From Gluconobacter oxydans (GTDB lineage Bacteria > Pseudomonadota > Alphaproteobacteria > Acetobacterales > Acetobacteraceae): DNA of 64,000 nt. Shown here piece by piece: positions 10,530 through 16,256 of the stretch. The position numbers and the translations under genes are program-made. The notes beneath the pieces were generated by a model. The model was not told where the DNA came from and ran no database searches. It saw only the letters and a program-made list of their open reading frames with translations. The stretch lies in assembly GCF_006539685.1 (NCBI RefSeq), contig NZ_BJNM01000003.1, positions 1 to 64,000 of the forward strand, given 5' to 3'. The first letter of the stretch is position 1. Each line of letters opens with the position of its first letter.

Positions 10530-11437
10530 CAGCCGCGACGGCGCAGAATCAGCGTGGCCCAGTCGCCTTCACGCAGGATACGCTCCAGCACGAGACCCTG
10601 CCGCTGGTGTGCAGCCAGTACCATCCGCGCCTGACTGTAAAGCAGGCCAGCCAGAATGGCTGTCCCGTTCGGCGCAAGGTTCAGCGCTAGGGACTGCGCC
10701 ATTCGGCAAAGTGGACGGGCGAGAATATTGGCGAAGACCAGATCATACGGCGCCTTGGCGCGCACGGCCTCGGTCTGCCAGCCATTGCCGAAGCGGCAGT
10801 CCAGCAGATTACCCTGACCGTTCAGTCGCGCATTGAGCTTCGCCGTCCGCACGGACCAGGGCTCGATATCAACGGCCAGAACCGGACGATGCAGCAGCTT
10901 TGCCGCCGCCATCGCCAGAATGCCTGACCCGCATCCCATATCCAGAATACGCTGCGGCTTGCGATATGCGACCATCTCCAATGCCCGCAGACAGCCACGC
11001 GTGGACCCATGCTCGCCCGAACCGAAGGCAATCCCCGCATCCAGCGTGATCGTCAGACGCGACTGATCCGGTGCGCCATGCAGATGAGTGCCGCGGATGG
11101 CAAAGCGCTTGCCCACATTCTGCTGCGGAAAGGATTCATAGGTCCTGGCCAGCCAGCCCTCGGACTCGGTAGGAGTCCGCTCGAGTTCCGCTTCACAGCC
11201 GGTCAGCATCCGAGCCACGGCCAGAGCATTTTCGAGCTCTTCTTCCTTGAAGCCCGTGTCCTTTACGCCTTCCACGCGCCAGTATTTCTGCGCGTCATCG
11301 GCCTCGAAAATGCCAACCGTCTCGCAGGCACACATCAGGGCCTGCTCGAACAGGGGAACGAAGGGCTCTTCCACCGTGATGGACAGGGTTTCGAGCGCAC
11401 TGGCATGGCGACGGCCAATGCTGCGGGGTGCCATCAC
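10529..11437 (-). CDS. prmA: Ribosomal protein L11 methyltransferase
   Basis: 302 residues. The C-terminal SAM-dependent methyltransferase domain has ILDMGCGSGILAMAAAKL (motif I), AVDIEP (motif II) and FANILARPL (an NxxxP-like catalytic loop). The N-terminal half is the L11-recognition domain. PrmA trimethylates ribosomal protein L11. Its ATG overlaps the stop of the uvrD-type gene by four bases. Confidence 0.93.
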   Translation of the reverse strand: MMAPRSIGRRHASALETLSITVEEPFVPLFEQALMCACETVGIFEADDAQKYWRVEGVKDTGFKEEELENALAVARMLTGCEAELERTPTESEGWLARTYESFPQQNVGKRFAIRGTHLHGAPDQSRLTITLDAGIAFGSGEHGSTRGCLRALEMVAYRKPQRILDMGCGSGILAMAAAKLLHRPVLAVDIEPWSVRTAKLNARLNGQGNLLDCRFGNGWQTEAVRAKAPYDLVFANILARPLCRMAQSLALNLAPNGTAILAGLLYSQARMVLAAHQRQGLVLERILREGDWATLILRRRG

Positions 11438-13656
11438 GATCTGATCTCCACGAAATTTGCCATGACGCGTTTAACGCCACCGTTTTCAAAATTGATATGC
11501 AACTGCGGCCCGTCAGCGCCGATGACGGTGCCTTCGCCGAACCTGTGATGAAAGACCGTCGCCCCGATCGCGACGGTCGGCTCCGGCTTCACATCATGGA
11601 TTTTCGGACGCGGAGCGCGGAAACCTGACGGGCGCGTACTCGTCAGCGGACCAGACGCGAACATGGACGGCGCCGCCGCAGCCTGCCGGCGCGTCTCGAA
11701 CGCCTGTCCCGTCAGCTGCACATATTCAGACGGGATTTCCTCAATAAACCGGCTCGGCATTGAGGACTGCCAGTTGGCATAGATCCGCCGGCTTGCCGCA
11801 TGCAGCACGATCGCCCGACGCCGCGCGCGCGTCAGCCCCACATAGGCCAGCCGCCGCTCTTCCTCGAGTGCCCGGTTGCCGCCTTCGTCAAGCGAACGCT
11901 GGGATGGAAACACACCTTCCTCCCAGCCCGGCAGGAACACGGTGTCGAATTCCAGTCCCTTAGCGCCATGCAGTGTCATGAGACTGACCTTGTCATCGGA
12001 CGTCTCGCTCTCGGTATCCATGACGAGCGCCACATGCTCCAGAAAGCCCTGAAGCGTCCCGAACTCTCCAAGAGCTCGCAAAAGCTCACGGATATTGTCC
12101 AGACGCCCCGGCGCCTCAACGGAGCGGTCATCCCGCCACATCTGAAGATAGCCACTATCTTCGAGAAGCTGCTCGGCCGCAACCACATGGCCTTCGGTCT
12201 CAAACGTCGCCTTGGCGCGCTGGAACGCCGCCATCAACCCGTCCAATGCGTCCTTCGACTTGCCCTTGAGCAATCCTTCCTGAAGCTGCCAGATCACAGC
12301 CGCCGTCAGCGGGCCGGGCAGGGCGCGCGCCTGGGCATGCAGCTTCTGCACCGCCACGGCACCCACGCCACGCTTGGGAACATTAATGATCCGCTCAAAC
12401 GCCAGATCATCCGCAGGCTGCGACAGCACGCGCAGATACGCTAGGCAGTCCCGGATTTCGGAGCGCTCGTAGAATCGCAGTCCACCCACGACGCGATACG
12501 GAATGCCGATCATCATCAACCGCTCTTCGAACGGTCGCGTCTGAAATCCAGCCCGCATCAGGATGGCGATTTCCGACAGCGGATGCCCGTCACCGCGCAG
12601 ACGCTCGATAGCGCCCCCCACGATCCGCGCTTCCTCATCCGAATCGCGTACTCCGATGATCTGGACCTTCTCCCCCTGCGCATCATCACGTCCGGGCCGT
12701 AGCGTCTTACCCAGCCGCCCCTCGTTATGCGCGATCAGCCCGGCAGCAGCAGCGAGGATCTGTGCCGTCGAACGGTAATTCCGCTCCAGACGTACGACTT
12801 CCGCTCCTGGAAAATCCTTTTCGAAGCGCAGGATGTTCTCAACTTCCGCCCCGCGCCAGGAATAGATGGACTGATCATCATCACCCACGCAGGCAATATT
12901 GGACGGTCCATGCTCGCGCTTGGCCAGCAGACGCAGCCACAGATACTGGACCGTATTCGTGTCCTGATACTCGTCCACAAGAATGTAGCGGAAGATCCGG
13001 TGATACTGCGCCAGCACATTGGGCTGGTTGCGCAGGATCTCCGTCATGTGGAGCATCAGATCGCCGAAATCGCACGTATTGAGCGCGATCAGACGCTCCT
13101 GATACGCCCGGTAAATCGCCAGCGCATGACCATTCGCAAAATCAGAGTCCTCGGCAGGCGTTACCCGGTCAGGTGTCAGTCCGCGATCCTTCCAGCGCTG
13201 GATGATCCCCATAAGCTGGTTCGGCGGCCAGCGTTTGGTATCGATCTTCCACGGTTCCATGACCTGCTTGAGCAGCCGGATCTGGTCATCCGTATCGAGG
13301 ATGTTGAAGCTGCTCGTCAGCCCGACATATTCCGCGTGACGCCGCAGCATCCGTGCACAGATCGCATGGAACGTCCCCAGCCAAAGACCTTCGGCCGGCT
13401 CGCCCAGAATCGCACTGACGCGCTCGCGCATTTCGCGGGCGGCCTTGTTCGTGAAGGTCACGGCCAGAATCTGGCTCGGATAGGCGCGGCCCGTCAGAAG
13501 GATATGCGCAAACCGCGTCGTCAGGACGCGCGTCTTGCCCGTTCCCGCACCGGCGAGAATGAGGAGCGGACCTTCGGTTGTCTCAATGGCGCGTCTCTGC
13601 TCCGGATTGAGGCGGGAGAGATACTCGGGGGTGGGGGAAGGTAGGTCTTGCGGCAC
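11434..13656 (-). CDS. UvrD/PcrA-type DNA helicase
   Basis: SF1A helicase of about 740 residues from a GTG at 13656 (VPQDLPSP...). Motif I LILAGAGTGKTR, motif II VDEYQDTN, motif III GDDDQSIYSWRGA, motif IV LERNYRS, motif V SLMTLHGAKGLEFD and motif VI YVGLTRARR are all present. The C-terminal Tudor-like segment (VFHHRFGEGTVIGADG) is the RNA polymerase-interacting type seen in PcrA/UvrD. It unwinds DNA in mismatch and excision repair. The reading frame stays open to 14226, but that extension is antisense to the RadC gene and low-similarity, so I reject it. GGGAGG abuts the GTG with no spacer, so the start is not certain. Confidence 0.93.
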   Translation of the reverse strand: MPQDLPSPTPEYLSRLNPEQRRAIETTEGPLLILAGAGTGKTRVLTTRFAHILLTGRAYPSQILAVTFTNKAAREMRERVSAILGEPAEGLWLGTFHAICARMLRRHAEYVGLTSSFNILDTDDQIRLLKQVMEPWKIDTKRWPPNQLMGIIQRWKDRGLTPDRVTPAEDSDFANGHALAIYRAYQERLIALNTCDFGDLMLHMTEILRNQPNVLAQYHRIFRYILVDEYQDTNTVQYLWLRLLAKREHGPSNIACVGDDDQSIYSWRGAEVENILRFEKDFPGAEVVRLERNYRSTAQILAAAAGLIAHNEGRLGKTLRPGRDDAQGEKVQIIGVRDSDEEARIVGGAIERLRGDGHPLSEIAILMRAGFQTRPFEERLMMIGIPYRVVGGLRFYERSEIRDCLAYLRVLSQPADDLAFERIINVPKRGVGAVAVQKLHAQARALPGPLTAAVIWQLQEGLLKGKSKDALDGLMAAFQRAKATFETEGHVVAAEQLLEDSGYLQMWRDDRSVEAPGRLDNIRELLRALGEFGTLQGFLEHVALVMDTESETSDDKVSLMTLHGAKGLEFDTVFLPGWEEGVFPSQRSLDEGGNRALEEERRLAYVGLTRARRRAIVLHAASRRIYANWQSSMPSRFIEEIPSEYVQLTGQAFETRRQAAAAPSMFASGPLTSTRPSGFRAPRPKIHDVKPEPTVAIGATVFHHRFGEGTVIGADGPQLHINFENGGVKRVMANFVEIRS

Positions 13657-13683
13657 CCTCCCGATATAGAGTGAGATACCGTC

Positions 13684-14373
13684 ATGGCCAACACCTATCC
13701 CCGGATCGATCTGACACGCGGCACAGGACCTCAGGGACACCGCGCCAGAATGCGCGCACGCGTGCTGGCCAATGGCGCTCACACACTCGCCGATTATGAA
13801 ATCCTCGAAATGCTGCTCTTCGCAGGTGTTCCGCGCAAGGACACGAAACCACTCGCCAAAGGACTGATCGCCCATTTTGGCAGTCTGGTGGACGTTTTCC
13901 GCGCTCCTACACAGGCCCTGCGCGCTGCAGGACTGAAAGACGATGCCATCCGCGTTCTGCGTCTCCCTGGCGTTGCCGCTGAACGTCTGGCCTCTTCCGA
14001 ACAGCGCGAACGCCCGACACTGAGCAACTGGGAACAGCTCATGGCCTATCTCGATCAGGCGCTTGAAGGCGGCATCCCGGGACAGTTCCGGCTGCTCTAT
14101 CTTGATAACCGTAACCGGCTTCTGGCGGACGAAGCCGCGCCCGAGGCGGACAGTCTTGCCGAACGCAACCGCGCCATCGCCATCAGGGCCCTCGCACTGC
14201 ATGCCACGGCCCTGATTGGTTTTCACATTCGTCCTAAGGAACGTCCTGCGGATCTGTCACAATCAGCCCGGCAACTGGACTTCGCGATGCGCCCCCTGTC
14301 CATCACGCTTCACGACGTACTCATCACGAATGAAGGGCGCCCTTCCAGCTTACGTCAGGAAGGACTGCTGTAA
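13684..14373 (+). CDS. RadC-family protein lacking the metal-binding motif
   Basis: 229 residues, clearly homologous to RadC (UPF0758). The helical N-terminal domain is intact (LADYEILEMLLFAGVPRKD... LVDVFRAPT), and the C-terminus ends like RadC (HDVLITNEGRPSSLRQEGLL). At the position of the JAMM motif HNHPSGDPTPSEAD it reads FHIRPKERPADLSQSA, so both His and the following SGD are gone and the domain should not bind zinc. There is no frameshift or stop. It sits two bases before an intact RadC gene, so it looks like a diverged tandem copy. It is divergent from the helicase gene with 27 bases between starts. Confidence 0.85.
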   Translation: MANTYPRIDLTRGTGPQGHRARMRARVLANGAHTLADYEILEMLLFAGVPRKDTKPLAKGLIAHFGSLVDVFRAPTQALRAAGLKDDAIRVLRLPGVAAERLASSEQRERPTLSNWEQLMAYLDQALEGGIPGQFRLLYLDNRNRLLADEAAPEADSLAERNRAIAIRALALHATALIGFHIRPKERPADLSQSARQLDFAMRPLSITLHDVLITNEGRPSSLRQEGLL

Positions 14374-14374
14374 G

Positions 14375-15130
14375 ATGAACGACAGGGACGCTGGAACAAC
14401 CGGATTTTCGGATGGCATGACAGGCCTGTCGTCGGCCGATCTGCGACAGATCACGGCACTGACGGATGCTCTTCCCGAAATGGAACCGCCGCTTGCCCTG
14501 CTGACGGGACGAGGGCGACATCTGGACGATGCGACCTTGCTGCATCTCCTGACCGTGCTGTTCACCGGCCGTGAAACGGGCAGCGTCGCGCTGTCTCACA
14601 ACCTCTTCGCGCGTTTCGGCTCTCTGGCCGCCGTCCTGTCCGCTACCGACCGGGAACTCGAAAGCATATCAGATATGGGCATGCATATGCTCCCCATGAT
14701 CCGTGTGCTTCAGGAAGCCGCACTTCGCTACAACCGCGCACGTCTTCCGCCGGAAGACGTGCTCGACAACGAACAGAAACTGCTCGACTACCTCACGGCC
14801 CGTTTGGCGCGGGAAAATATCGAGCAGTTCCGCATCCTGTTTCTCAACGAAAAGAACAGTCTGATCGCCGATGAGGCACAGGCCAGAGGCACAGTCAATC
14901 ACACACCCGTCTACCCACGGGAAGTCGCCAGACGTGCGGTGGAAATTGGAGCTACAGCGCTGGTTCTGGTCCACAACCACCCCAGCGGCGATCCCACGCC
15001 CTCGGAAGCCGATCTTCAGATGACCATGCAGGTTCAGGCGGCGCTCGAAGTGGTCGGCGTCACGATTGCGGACCACTTCATCATCGGCAACGGCCGACAC
15101 ACCAGCTTTCGCCGCAGCAACCTGCTCTGA
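14375..15130 (+). CDS. radC: RadC family JAB/MPN-domain protein
   Basis: 251 residues from ATG 14375. The N-terminal helical domain is followed by the JAMM-type domain with intact VHNHPSGDPTPSEAD (two His and Asp as metal ligands) and ADHFIIGNGRHTSFR near the C-terminus. The family was named for DNA repair, but that role in E. coli was withdrawn; many members are linked to competence or plasmid anti-restriction. The start lies just after the stop of the preceding RadC paralogue, so the two are probably one transcript. It is convergent with purK at a 4-base spacing. Confidence 0.93.
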   Translation: MNDRDAGTTGFSDGMTGLSSADLRQITALTDALPEMEPPLALLTGRGRHLDDATLLHLLTVLFTGRETGSVALSHNLFARFGSLAAVLSATDRELESISDMGMHMLPMIRVLQEAALRYNRARLPPEDVLDNEQKLLDYLTARLARENIEQFRILFLNEKNSLIADEAQARGTVNHTPVYPREVARRAVEIGATALVLVHNHPSGDPTPSEADLQMTMQVQAALEVVGVTIADHFIIGNGRHTSFRRSNLL

Positions 15131-15134
15131 GGCT

Positions 15135-16256
15135 TCAGCCGCGCGGCGGCAGAAGCCCTTCAAGCGCCAGTTCGCCCGGAAGAGCTCCGCGCGGGAAAAT
15201 GGTGTTCACATGCCCCATCTTCCGCCCCGGACGTGCTTCCGCCTTGCCGTACAGATGCAGCGATGCCCCATCCGTTGCAAGAATGGCCGGAACACGCGCC
15301 ATGTCTTCGGGGCCAATCAGATTGTGCATGACGGCATCGGAATGCCGACGTGCAGGCGGCAACGGCAGACCTGCCACCGCCCGCACATGCATCTCGAACT
15401 GATCCACCAGACACGCATCCATGGTCCAGTGCCCGGAATTATGCGGACGAGGGGCGATCTCGTTCACCATGAGGCTGCCATCAGCGGCGTGGAACATTTC
15501 CACGCCCATGATCCCGACCAGACCCAGCGCCTCGGCAATGCAGGCCGCCATGTCCTGCGCCTGACGCGCAAGGTCCGGCATGACGCGGGCAGGAGCCAGC
15601 GTCACATCCAAGATACCATTGCGGTGCCGGTTCTCGACCGTATCGAAACACCGCACGGTTCCGTCCAGACCACGGACCACCATCACGCTGAGCTCACGCT
15701 CGAAATCGATCATCTTCTCCGCAACGAGCGGATAGGGCAGATCCTGCAGGGCTGCGAGGGCCTCGGCATCGGTCACCCGGAACTGTCCCTTGCCGTCGTA
15801 ACCAAAGCGGGTCGTCTTGAGAATGAGCGGAAAACCGAGCGTCTCAAGCCCTGCCAGATCCTCGGGGCCATTGATGGCCCGCCAGGGGGCGAGACTGACG
15901 CCAATTTCGGACAGACGCGTCTTTTCCGCAATCCGGTCCTGACTGATCCGCAGGATTTCACCCACAGGCCGCACCGGCCGGTGCTTTTCAAGCAAGGCCA
16001 GTCCTTCGGCACTGATATTCTCGAACTCGAACGTCACGACATCACAACGGGAGGCAAAATCCTCAAGCGCCGCCGGATCGTCATAGGCTCCGACCGTCAC
16101 AGATGCCGCGACTTCCGTGGCCGGGCTCGGCGCCTCGGTGCTCAGCACATGGACATGAAAGCCCAGCTTCGAGGCCGCAACGGCTGACATGCGACCAAGC
16201 TGTCCGCCACCAATGATCCCGATCGTGCTGCCGGGAGCAAAAACCTGCGCCTTCAT
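15135..16256 (-). CDS. purK: 5-(carboxyamino)imidazole ribonucleotide synthase
   Basis: 373 residues from ATG 16256. ATP-grasp enzyme of purine synthesis converting AIR, bicarbonate and ATP to N5-CAIR. The N-terminal [12 protein letters not shown], central [10 protein letters not shown] and C-terminal [19 protein letters not shown] are PurK hallmarks. The start overlaps the purE stop by four bases (ATGA). The frame extends to 16514, but that part overlaps purE and has no PurK similarity. Confidence 0.97.

Follow-up and report, generated by a model that had tools for sequence, protein, structure and literature searches.

Rpn11-Rpn8 and CSN5-CSN6 are MPN+/MPN- pairs, in which a catalytic JAMM protein is combined with a partner that has no zinc site. 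In another such pair, the dead MPN- protein KIAA0157 activates BRCC36 (PMC4579573). RadC is found widely, and there is no consensus on its function. According to PMC11981726 it has no established reaction, and E. coli radC mutants are reported there to show normal sensitivity to DNA damage. In the window (the whole stretch of 64,000 nucleotides of Gluconobacter oxydans DNA analysed here), two adjacent RadC genes, A and B, share between them the intact parts that canonical RadC carries in one chain. A search of the open-access literature by titles and abstract openings found no description of a JAMM-less RadC or of an A/B pair.

Two RadC genes in the window

Both genes match PF04002 in the Pfam scan (A with an E-value of 7e-14, B with 5.7e-41) and are 31% identical over 204 columns; no third PF04002 match occurs in the 2.7-Mb genome at E <= 1. 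The TAA of A ends at 14373 and the ATG of B starts at 14375, so that the gap is a single base rather than the two given in an earlier note on this DNA (Table 1). Among the matches listed, the best named one for A is from G. roseus NBRC 3990, at 95% identity.

Table 1. Positions in the window of the two RadC genes, their parts and their neighbours
Feature	Position	Strand	Basis
A: RadC homologue without JAMM site, 229 aa	13684..14373	+	ORF, domain matches, orthologue alignment
A, kept N-terminal module UPF0758_N (GHRARMR, DYEILEMLL, RKDTKPLAK, FGSL)	13744..13935	+	PF20582 residues 21-84, invariant columns
A, MPN-like domain, predicted RadC fold, catalytic loops gone	14023..14367	+	PF04002 match; model residues 111-229 on 2qlc_E
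A, site of lost HxH motif (FHIRPKERPAD)	14221..14253	+	translation, alignment to B
One base separating A stop (TAA) from B start (ATG)	14374..14374	+	
B: RadC homologue, JAMM site intact, N-terminal domain degenerate, 251 aa	14375..15130	+	domain matches, orthologues
B, N-terminal tail motif GFSD (GF[AS][DE])	14402..14413	+	translation, motif count
B, catalytic RadC/JAB domain	14765..15118	+	PF04002 residues 131-248
B, HNHPSGDPTPSEAD (HxHx7SxxD)	14972..15013	+	translation
UvrD/PcrA-type helicase, start approximate, divergent to A	11434..13659	-	Pfam, synteny
PurK, start approximate, convergent to B	15135..16256	-	Pfam, synteny

A scores over the cut-off for PF04002 (52.2 against 22.1 bits), only marginally over that for PF20582 (27.2 against 27.1 bits), and under those for TIGR00608 (96 against 133.85 bits) and NF000642 (92.5 against 180). 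B passes the last two, with 185.2 and 186.8 bits, and leaves PF20582 unmatched in the Pfam scan even at E <= 1; the normal flanking domains reported in the earlier note are present in A, and the N-terminal domain of B is degenerate.

In A, GFHIRPKERPAD aligns where B carries VHNHPSGDPTPSEAD, and the HxHx7SxxD portion of the JAMM site ExnHxHx7SxxD is absent, the Glu of ADE being retained. All 69 full-length B sequences keep both His, the Ser and the Asp of the motif, which is part of the definition of the class, and HxHx7[SG]xx[DE] is found in no sequence for which the A profile is the best fit (82 full-length A). The description of a second gene with an intact motif beside a first gene without it, and without a frameshift, is therefore borne out, and on the evidence of these sequences the loss in A is neither chance nor frameshift. 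Alignment of the lost loop is unsure, the first JAMM His being placed in 4 of 84 A sequences in an earlier table and in 23 of 82 in the final one. A new active site in A was considered and rejected, the conserved LHD and ADE residues being equally conserved in canonical RadC.

Complementary losses in A and B

The losses in the two genes are complementary: the N-terminal module stays with A, and the tail and active site stay with B. In per-member Pfam scans (E <= 0.01), UPF0758_N (PF20582) was matched by 23 of 23 A orthologues, 17 of 17 canonical proteins and 2 of 21 B, and Prok-JAB by none of the 23 A, all 17 canonical proteins and 20 of the 21 B. Scored against profiles of the canonical halves, the N-terminal half has a median of 101 bits in A, 35 in B and 150 in canonical RadC; the corresponding medians for the C-terminal half are 74, 181 and 235 bits.

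Single residues follow the same division in a site table of full-length sequences (82 A, 69 B and 129 canonical). The GHR His is present in 82 of 82 A, 5 of 69 B and 128 of 129 canonical sequences, and the DTK Lys in 81, 2 and 127, respectively. The LHDH motif is itself divided, its first His lying with A (73/82, against 2/69 in B and 127/129 in canonical RadC) and its second with B (69/69, with 129/129 in canonical RadC), and most A sequences are without the second (present in 21/82). The second JAMM His is found in 6 of 82 A, 69 of 69 B and 129 of 129 canonical sequences; rows of this kind are partly circular, as the JAMM motif helped to define classes A and B, while the N-terminal rows are not. 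The earlier table held 84 A, 73 B and 131 canonical sequences, a few of them cut, and eight (2 A, 4 B and 2 canonical) were dropped; also left out of the site table were the fusion described below and L292 and L270, which fall in class B by threshold and are other RadC types.

A further element, GF[AS][DE], lies in the N-terminal tail. Of 125 canonical proteins, 53 carry it within the 100 residues ahead of GHR (shuffled mean 0.46). Among B proteins with tails long enough it occurs in 28 of 52 (shuffled mean 0.23), the same test giving 40 of 66 for canonical RadC, and it is found in 3 of 81 A. A looser pattern, G[FM]x[DE], is present in 37 of 70 B and 70 of 113 canonical tails. In canonical and B RadC tails of this family the frequency of GF[AS][DE] is far above that in shuffles, and the motif is a possible candidate for docking to some partner. 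The reciprocal N-terminal loss in B had escaped the earlier note, and the pair reads as two complementary part-proteins rather than as a dead copy beside a complete enzyme.

Selection on both genes

Summed Nei-Gojobori estimates from 16 Gluconobacter genomes give a whole-gene dN/dS of 0.073 for A and 0.091 for B, with 0.032 for partial UvrD. By halves the values are 0.044 (A, N-terminal), 0.101 (A, C-terminal), 0.145 (B, N-terminal) and 0.034 (B, C-terminal); between 64 and 105 of 120 pairs per segment were usable under the filter 0.05 < dS < 1.5. A codon bootstrap over seven disjoint pairs, chosen without a tree, gave 0.038 (0.022-0.063) and 0.090 (0.062-0.122) for the halves of A, whose intervals just touch, and 0.129 (0.091-0.168) and 0.023 (0.013-0.038) for those of B, which are clearly separate. 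Both genes are under selection, each most strongly in the half that the other has lost.

Within A, the MPN-like domain evolves fast, with a tree length 3.67 times that of the reference, and even its dead loops remain constrained at a dN/dS of 0.145. Thirty columns are invariant across 23 A orthologues. The dN/dS check that the earlier note had proposed in advance for the first gene thus yielded strong purifying selection, relaxed selection not being found, and its characterization of A as an unbroken pseudoenzyme stands.

Distribution and ancestry

The family was sampled in several ways. With A as query, 299 Acetobacteraceae genomes were searched (289 with a match, canonical RadC included) together with 26 genomes of the genus; the A profile was run against a named genome collection (best 80 loci) and 74 family genomes picked by genus. 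RadC sequences were obtained from 143 genomes representing 98 of 102 genus codes, the others being g30, g77 and g94 (no match) and g34 (unread). In g30 and g77 no RadC match was found in G029, G116, G077 or G144, genomes that are 98-100% complete except for G144 at 85%.

A is present in at least 74 of the 143 genomes and in 31 of the 98 genus codes, with a fused form in one further code; these counts are lower bounds from the RadC copies that were read, and they include G009, of which only the N-terminal half was read. Canonical single-chain RadC, with A not found, characterizes 66 of the 143, and G016 and G078 yielded only broken or partial RadC copies. Apparent single-domain N-terminal proteins in G009 and G078 were set aside, the frame in G009 meeting a contig end and the pieces in G078 lying on separate contigs. 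Among the best 80 named loci, A is present at 28, with B in the DNA read at 22 of them, and the other 52 have canonical RadC only. Named carriers of A comprise Gluconobacter, Neokomagataea, Asaia, Acidomonas, Tanticharoenia, Acetobacter, Gluconacetobacter, Saccharibacter, Lichenicoccus and some Roseomonas, and in its own genus A occurs in 26 of 26 genomes, free of internal stops.

In a tree of 149 proteins, built by a quick method without bootstrap and with some long branches, B forms one clade (SH-aLRT 99), as does A (SH-aLRT 91 with L093 from Pseudoroseomonas aestuarii, 100 without it), and both clades are nested among canonical RadC. As A is a single clade among intact proteins, its absence elsewhere fits ancestry rather than loss. 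The earlier note had held that loss of the first copy in most relatives would mark it as decaying; within the clade no such loss is seen (26 of 26 genomes), and most other genera do lack A and carry canonical RadC (the 66 of 143 genomes above). Two records sit oddly in the tree and are possibly mislabelled genomes: the RadC of L146, titled Mycobacterium sp. KBS0706, pairs with Inquilinus, and the canonical RadC of L108, a MAG titled Asaia bogorensis, groups with a Rhodospirillales MAG, unlike other Asaia records, which have A and B.

Possible early stages of the pair can also be recognized. L093 (3428-4669) still has HHHPDGRPTPGQAD, and its RGTVNHTPVYPRE loop is decaying. HxH and the Asp are retained, the Ser has become Gly, and the catalytic loop is degenerate. 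It lies inside the A clade but, with HxH and the Asp kept, was counted as canonical, and in sequence it looks like an intermediate between canonical RadC and A. Elioraea tepidiphila (L100) and genome G097 (L276) have two intact, diverged RadC genes in tandem, a plausible starting state for the A-B pair. A and B occur together with canonical RadC in four genomes (G012, G017, G043 and G080). This points to an origin of the pair in the presence of an intact copy, and the pair may serve a purpose separate from that of canonical RadC.

Gene order and a natural fusion

B lies in the loci read of 66 of the 74 A genomes, and the remaining eight have a second RadC match elsewhere, judged by position only. 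B without A was found in none of the 143 genomes, in a reading that was centred on A and so favoured B beside A. At 67 of 69 paired loci A is upstream of B on the same strand, and at the other two the genes are on opposite strands. The order in most of the acetic acid bacteria read is pepP-prmA-uvrD (-), A (+), often a HAD phosphatase gene (-), B (+) and purK-purE (-), and the phosphatase gene separates A from B in many genomes; in g41, g14 and some g31 the two are far apart. The order of A before B, whose conservation the earlier note had proposed to survey, is kept at nearly all paired loci read, with unlinked genes in some genera and the two opposite-strand loci as departures from it. Around the tandems of Roseomonas mucosa and R. 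acroporae no uvrD was matched within the 4 kb read on each side, so the A-B link is independent of the uvrD neighbourhood. At seven loci (Gluconobacter, Acetobacter, Roseomonas acroporae and g101) the nearest start in the B frame overlaps the A stop by 4 bases, an overlap that is suggestive only, the starts having been chosen as the nearest.

Genome G066 (2.0 Mb, 3 contigs) contains one uninterrupted frame of 626 codons, with its first ATG at codon 6, that combines an A-type N-terminal module with a JAMM domain of B type (L198 / L204; C1, 1893317-1895194, minus strand, divergent from uvrD). Its UPF0758_N match, at 19.7 bits, does not reach the Pfam cut-off of 27.1, and no Pfam family was matched by residues 113-502 at 0.001. 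G066, the sole sampled member of its genus, is the one genome in which the fusion is known, and none of 59 other genomes examined has one; a long open frame in G012 was rejected as a second case on account of stops between its A and B. Gene order, co-occurrence and this natural fusion make joint action of the pair, as the earlier note had supposed, very probable.

Covariation of rates was also calculated, with mean rho of 0.62 for A-B, 0.67 for A-UvrD, 0.56 for B-UvrD and 0.55 for PrmA-UvrD. It was rejected as proof of interaction: the controls of a first version sat in the reference, and a fairer version was not specific to A-B.

Structure models

The predicted models have a pLDDT of 85.5 for A and 85.0 for B, the first 30 residues of B being low. 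Residues 111-229 of A superpose on 2qlc_E, the RadC domain of C. tepidum, over 117 residues (Z 15.2, rmsd 2.8), and by this model A retains the RadC/MPN fold. None of its other listed structural matches, chains of the BRCC36-KIAA0157 and COP9 complexes among them, reaches Z 7, and matches below Z 8 were not taken as kinship. The A profile matches the HhH repeats of topoisomerase V, with E 2.5e-12 over the whole chain but at best i-E 0.44 for any single repeat, and the A model matches the HhH domain of Hef (Z 6.4); from these likenesses DNA docking by A is weakly suggested.

A probable split RadC and its alternatives

Complementary loss, purifying selection on both genes, conserved order, co-occurrence and one natural fusion point to A and B as two parts of a subfunctionalised RadC, which probably assemble into an obligate hetero-oligomer. 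An ancestral RadC with the GF[AS][DE] tail, the UPF0758_N/HhH module and a JAMM/MPN+ catalytic domain would have been duplicated in Acetobacteraceae. A would have kept the N-terminal module and turned its MPN fold into a scaffold without catalysis (MPN-), and B would have kept the tail and active site while its N-terminal module decayed. In the hetero-oligomer, the dead MPN domain of A may bind and order the active MPN domain of B, and the N-terminal module of A may supply docking to substrate or DNA, so that the pair would perform the job of one RadC chain elsewhere. Physical assembly, allosteric activation, DNA docking and an unchanged ancestral activity are the components of this proposal that we infer.

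The two proteins might instead be subfunctionalised and act separately, A as a binder of DNA or a partner and B as a JAMM hydrolase, with adjacency a remnant of duplication. The lineages in which A and B are unlinked, the two loci with opposite strands and the stronger constraint on the N-terminal half of A would all suit such independence, which nevertheless seems rather unlikely to us: the MPN-like domain of A is itself under purifying selection (dN/dS about 0.10), B is alone in 0 of 143 genomes, candidate starts overlap or abut in several lineages, and a natural A-B fusion exists. Less probable again is a role of A as a brake or competitor, in which this dead RadC would restrain B by binding the same partner or DNA or by capping it. 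Some pseudoenzyme inhibitors likewise keep a binding module and lose catalysis, as A has done; B, however, no longer has the module with which it would compete with A for a shared docking site, and a brake would be expected to vanish at times while B stays, a state seen in none of the 143 genomes.

A could also serve the divergently transcribed helicase UvrD/PcrA and not B. It is divergent to uvrD in most of the acetic acid bacteria read, uvrD remains beside it in G040, G214 and G013, where B lies elsewhere, and the rates of A and UvrD covary at 0.67. UvrD covaries too with B (0.56) and PrmA (0.55), however, and the tandems of Roseomonas mucosa and R. acroporae have no uvrD match in the 4 kb on each side, which leaves this arrangement distinctly improbable. 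That A is simply a decaying duplicate, as loss of its catalytic site might imply, is hardly credible given a whole-gene dN/dS of 0.073, the 30 columns that do not vary among 23 orthologues and the lack of internal stops in all 26 genomes of the genus; dN/dS and conservation together rule it out.

If the split-RadC reading is right, evolution has divided the conserved parts of RadC between two selected genes and so provides a natural handle on RadC function, in a genome with no third RadC to mask either. The division also suggests which residues belong together, with GHR/DTK and the first His of LHDH in one group and the JAMM loops, the second His and the GF[AS][DE] tail in the other.

Comparison with known systems

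Canonical RadC (UPF0758; TIGR00608, PF20582 plus PF04002; C-terminal structure 2QLC) has the same domain order as A and B, the same active site as B and a C-terminal fold that the model of A keeps (Z 15.2); it is one chain, whereas here the intact parts are shared between two. The RadC-like DinG and pExoDinG proteins (PMC11981726) likewise place a RadC-like or dead nuclease domain in a DNA-handling protein, but they are helicase fusions and not a paralogous pair.

The pairs of BRCC36 with KIAA0157 or Abraxas combine a catalytic JAMM protein with a paralogue that has no zinc site. A and B are similarly paralogous and co-conserved, one with JAMM and one without, and A is predicted to keep the MPN fold. 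Chains of such complexes stand in the structural list of A at Z 5-7, values that do not rise above what a common arrangement would give; the eukaryotic pairs are linked to ubiquitin, and by the tree the origin of A-B is independent. A bolder statement, to which we give slightly less than an even chance, is that bacteria evolved an obligate MPN+/MPN- pair independently of eukaryotes, in which, in acetic acid bacteria, dead A activates and addresses live B, single-chain RadC is replaced altogether, and docking and catalysis are genetically separated. Should A activate B, this would be pseudoenzyme control in the JAMM family of bacteria, arisen independently of the eukaryotic cases. Unlike the MPN+/MPN- pairs, the A-B pair is known from sequences and models only, and its catalytic member has also lost the module that its dead partner keeps.
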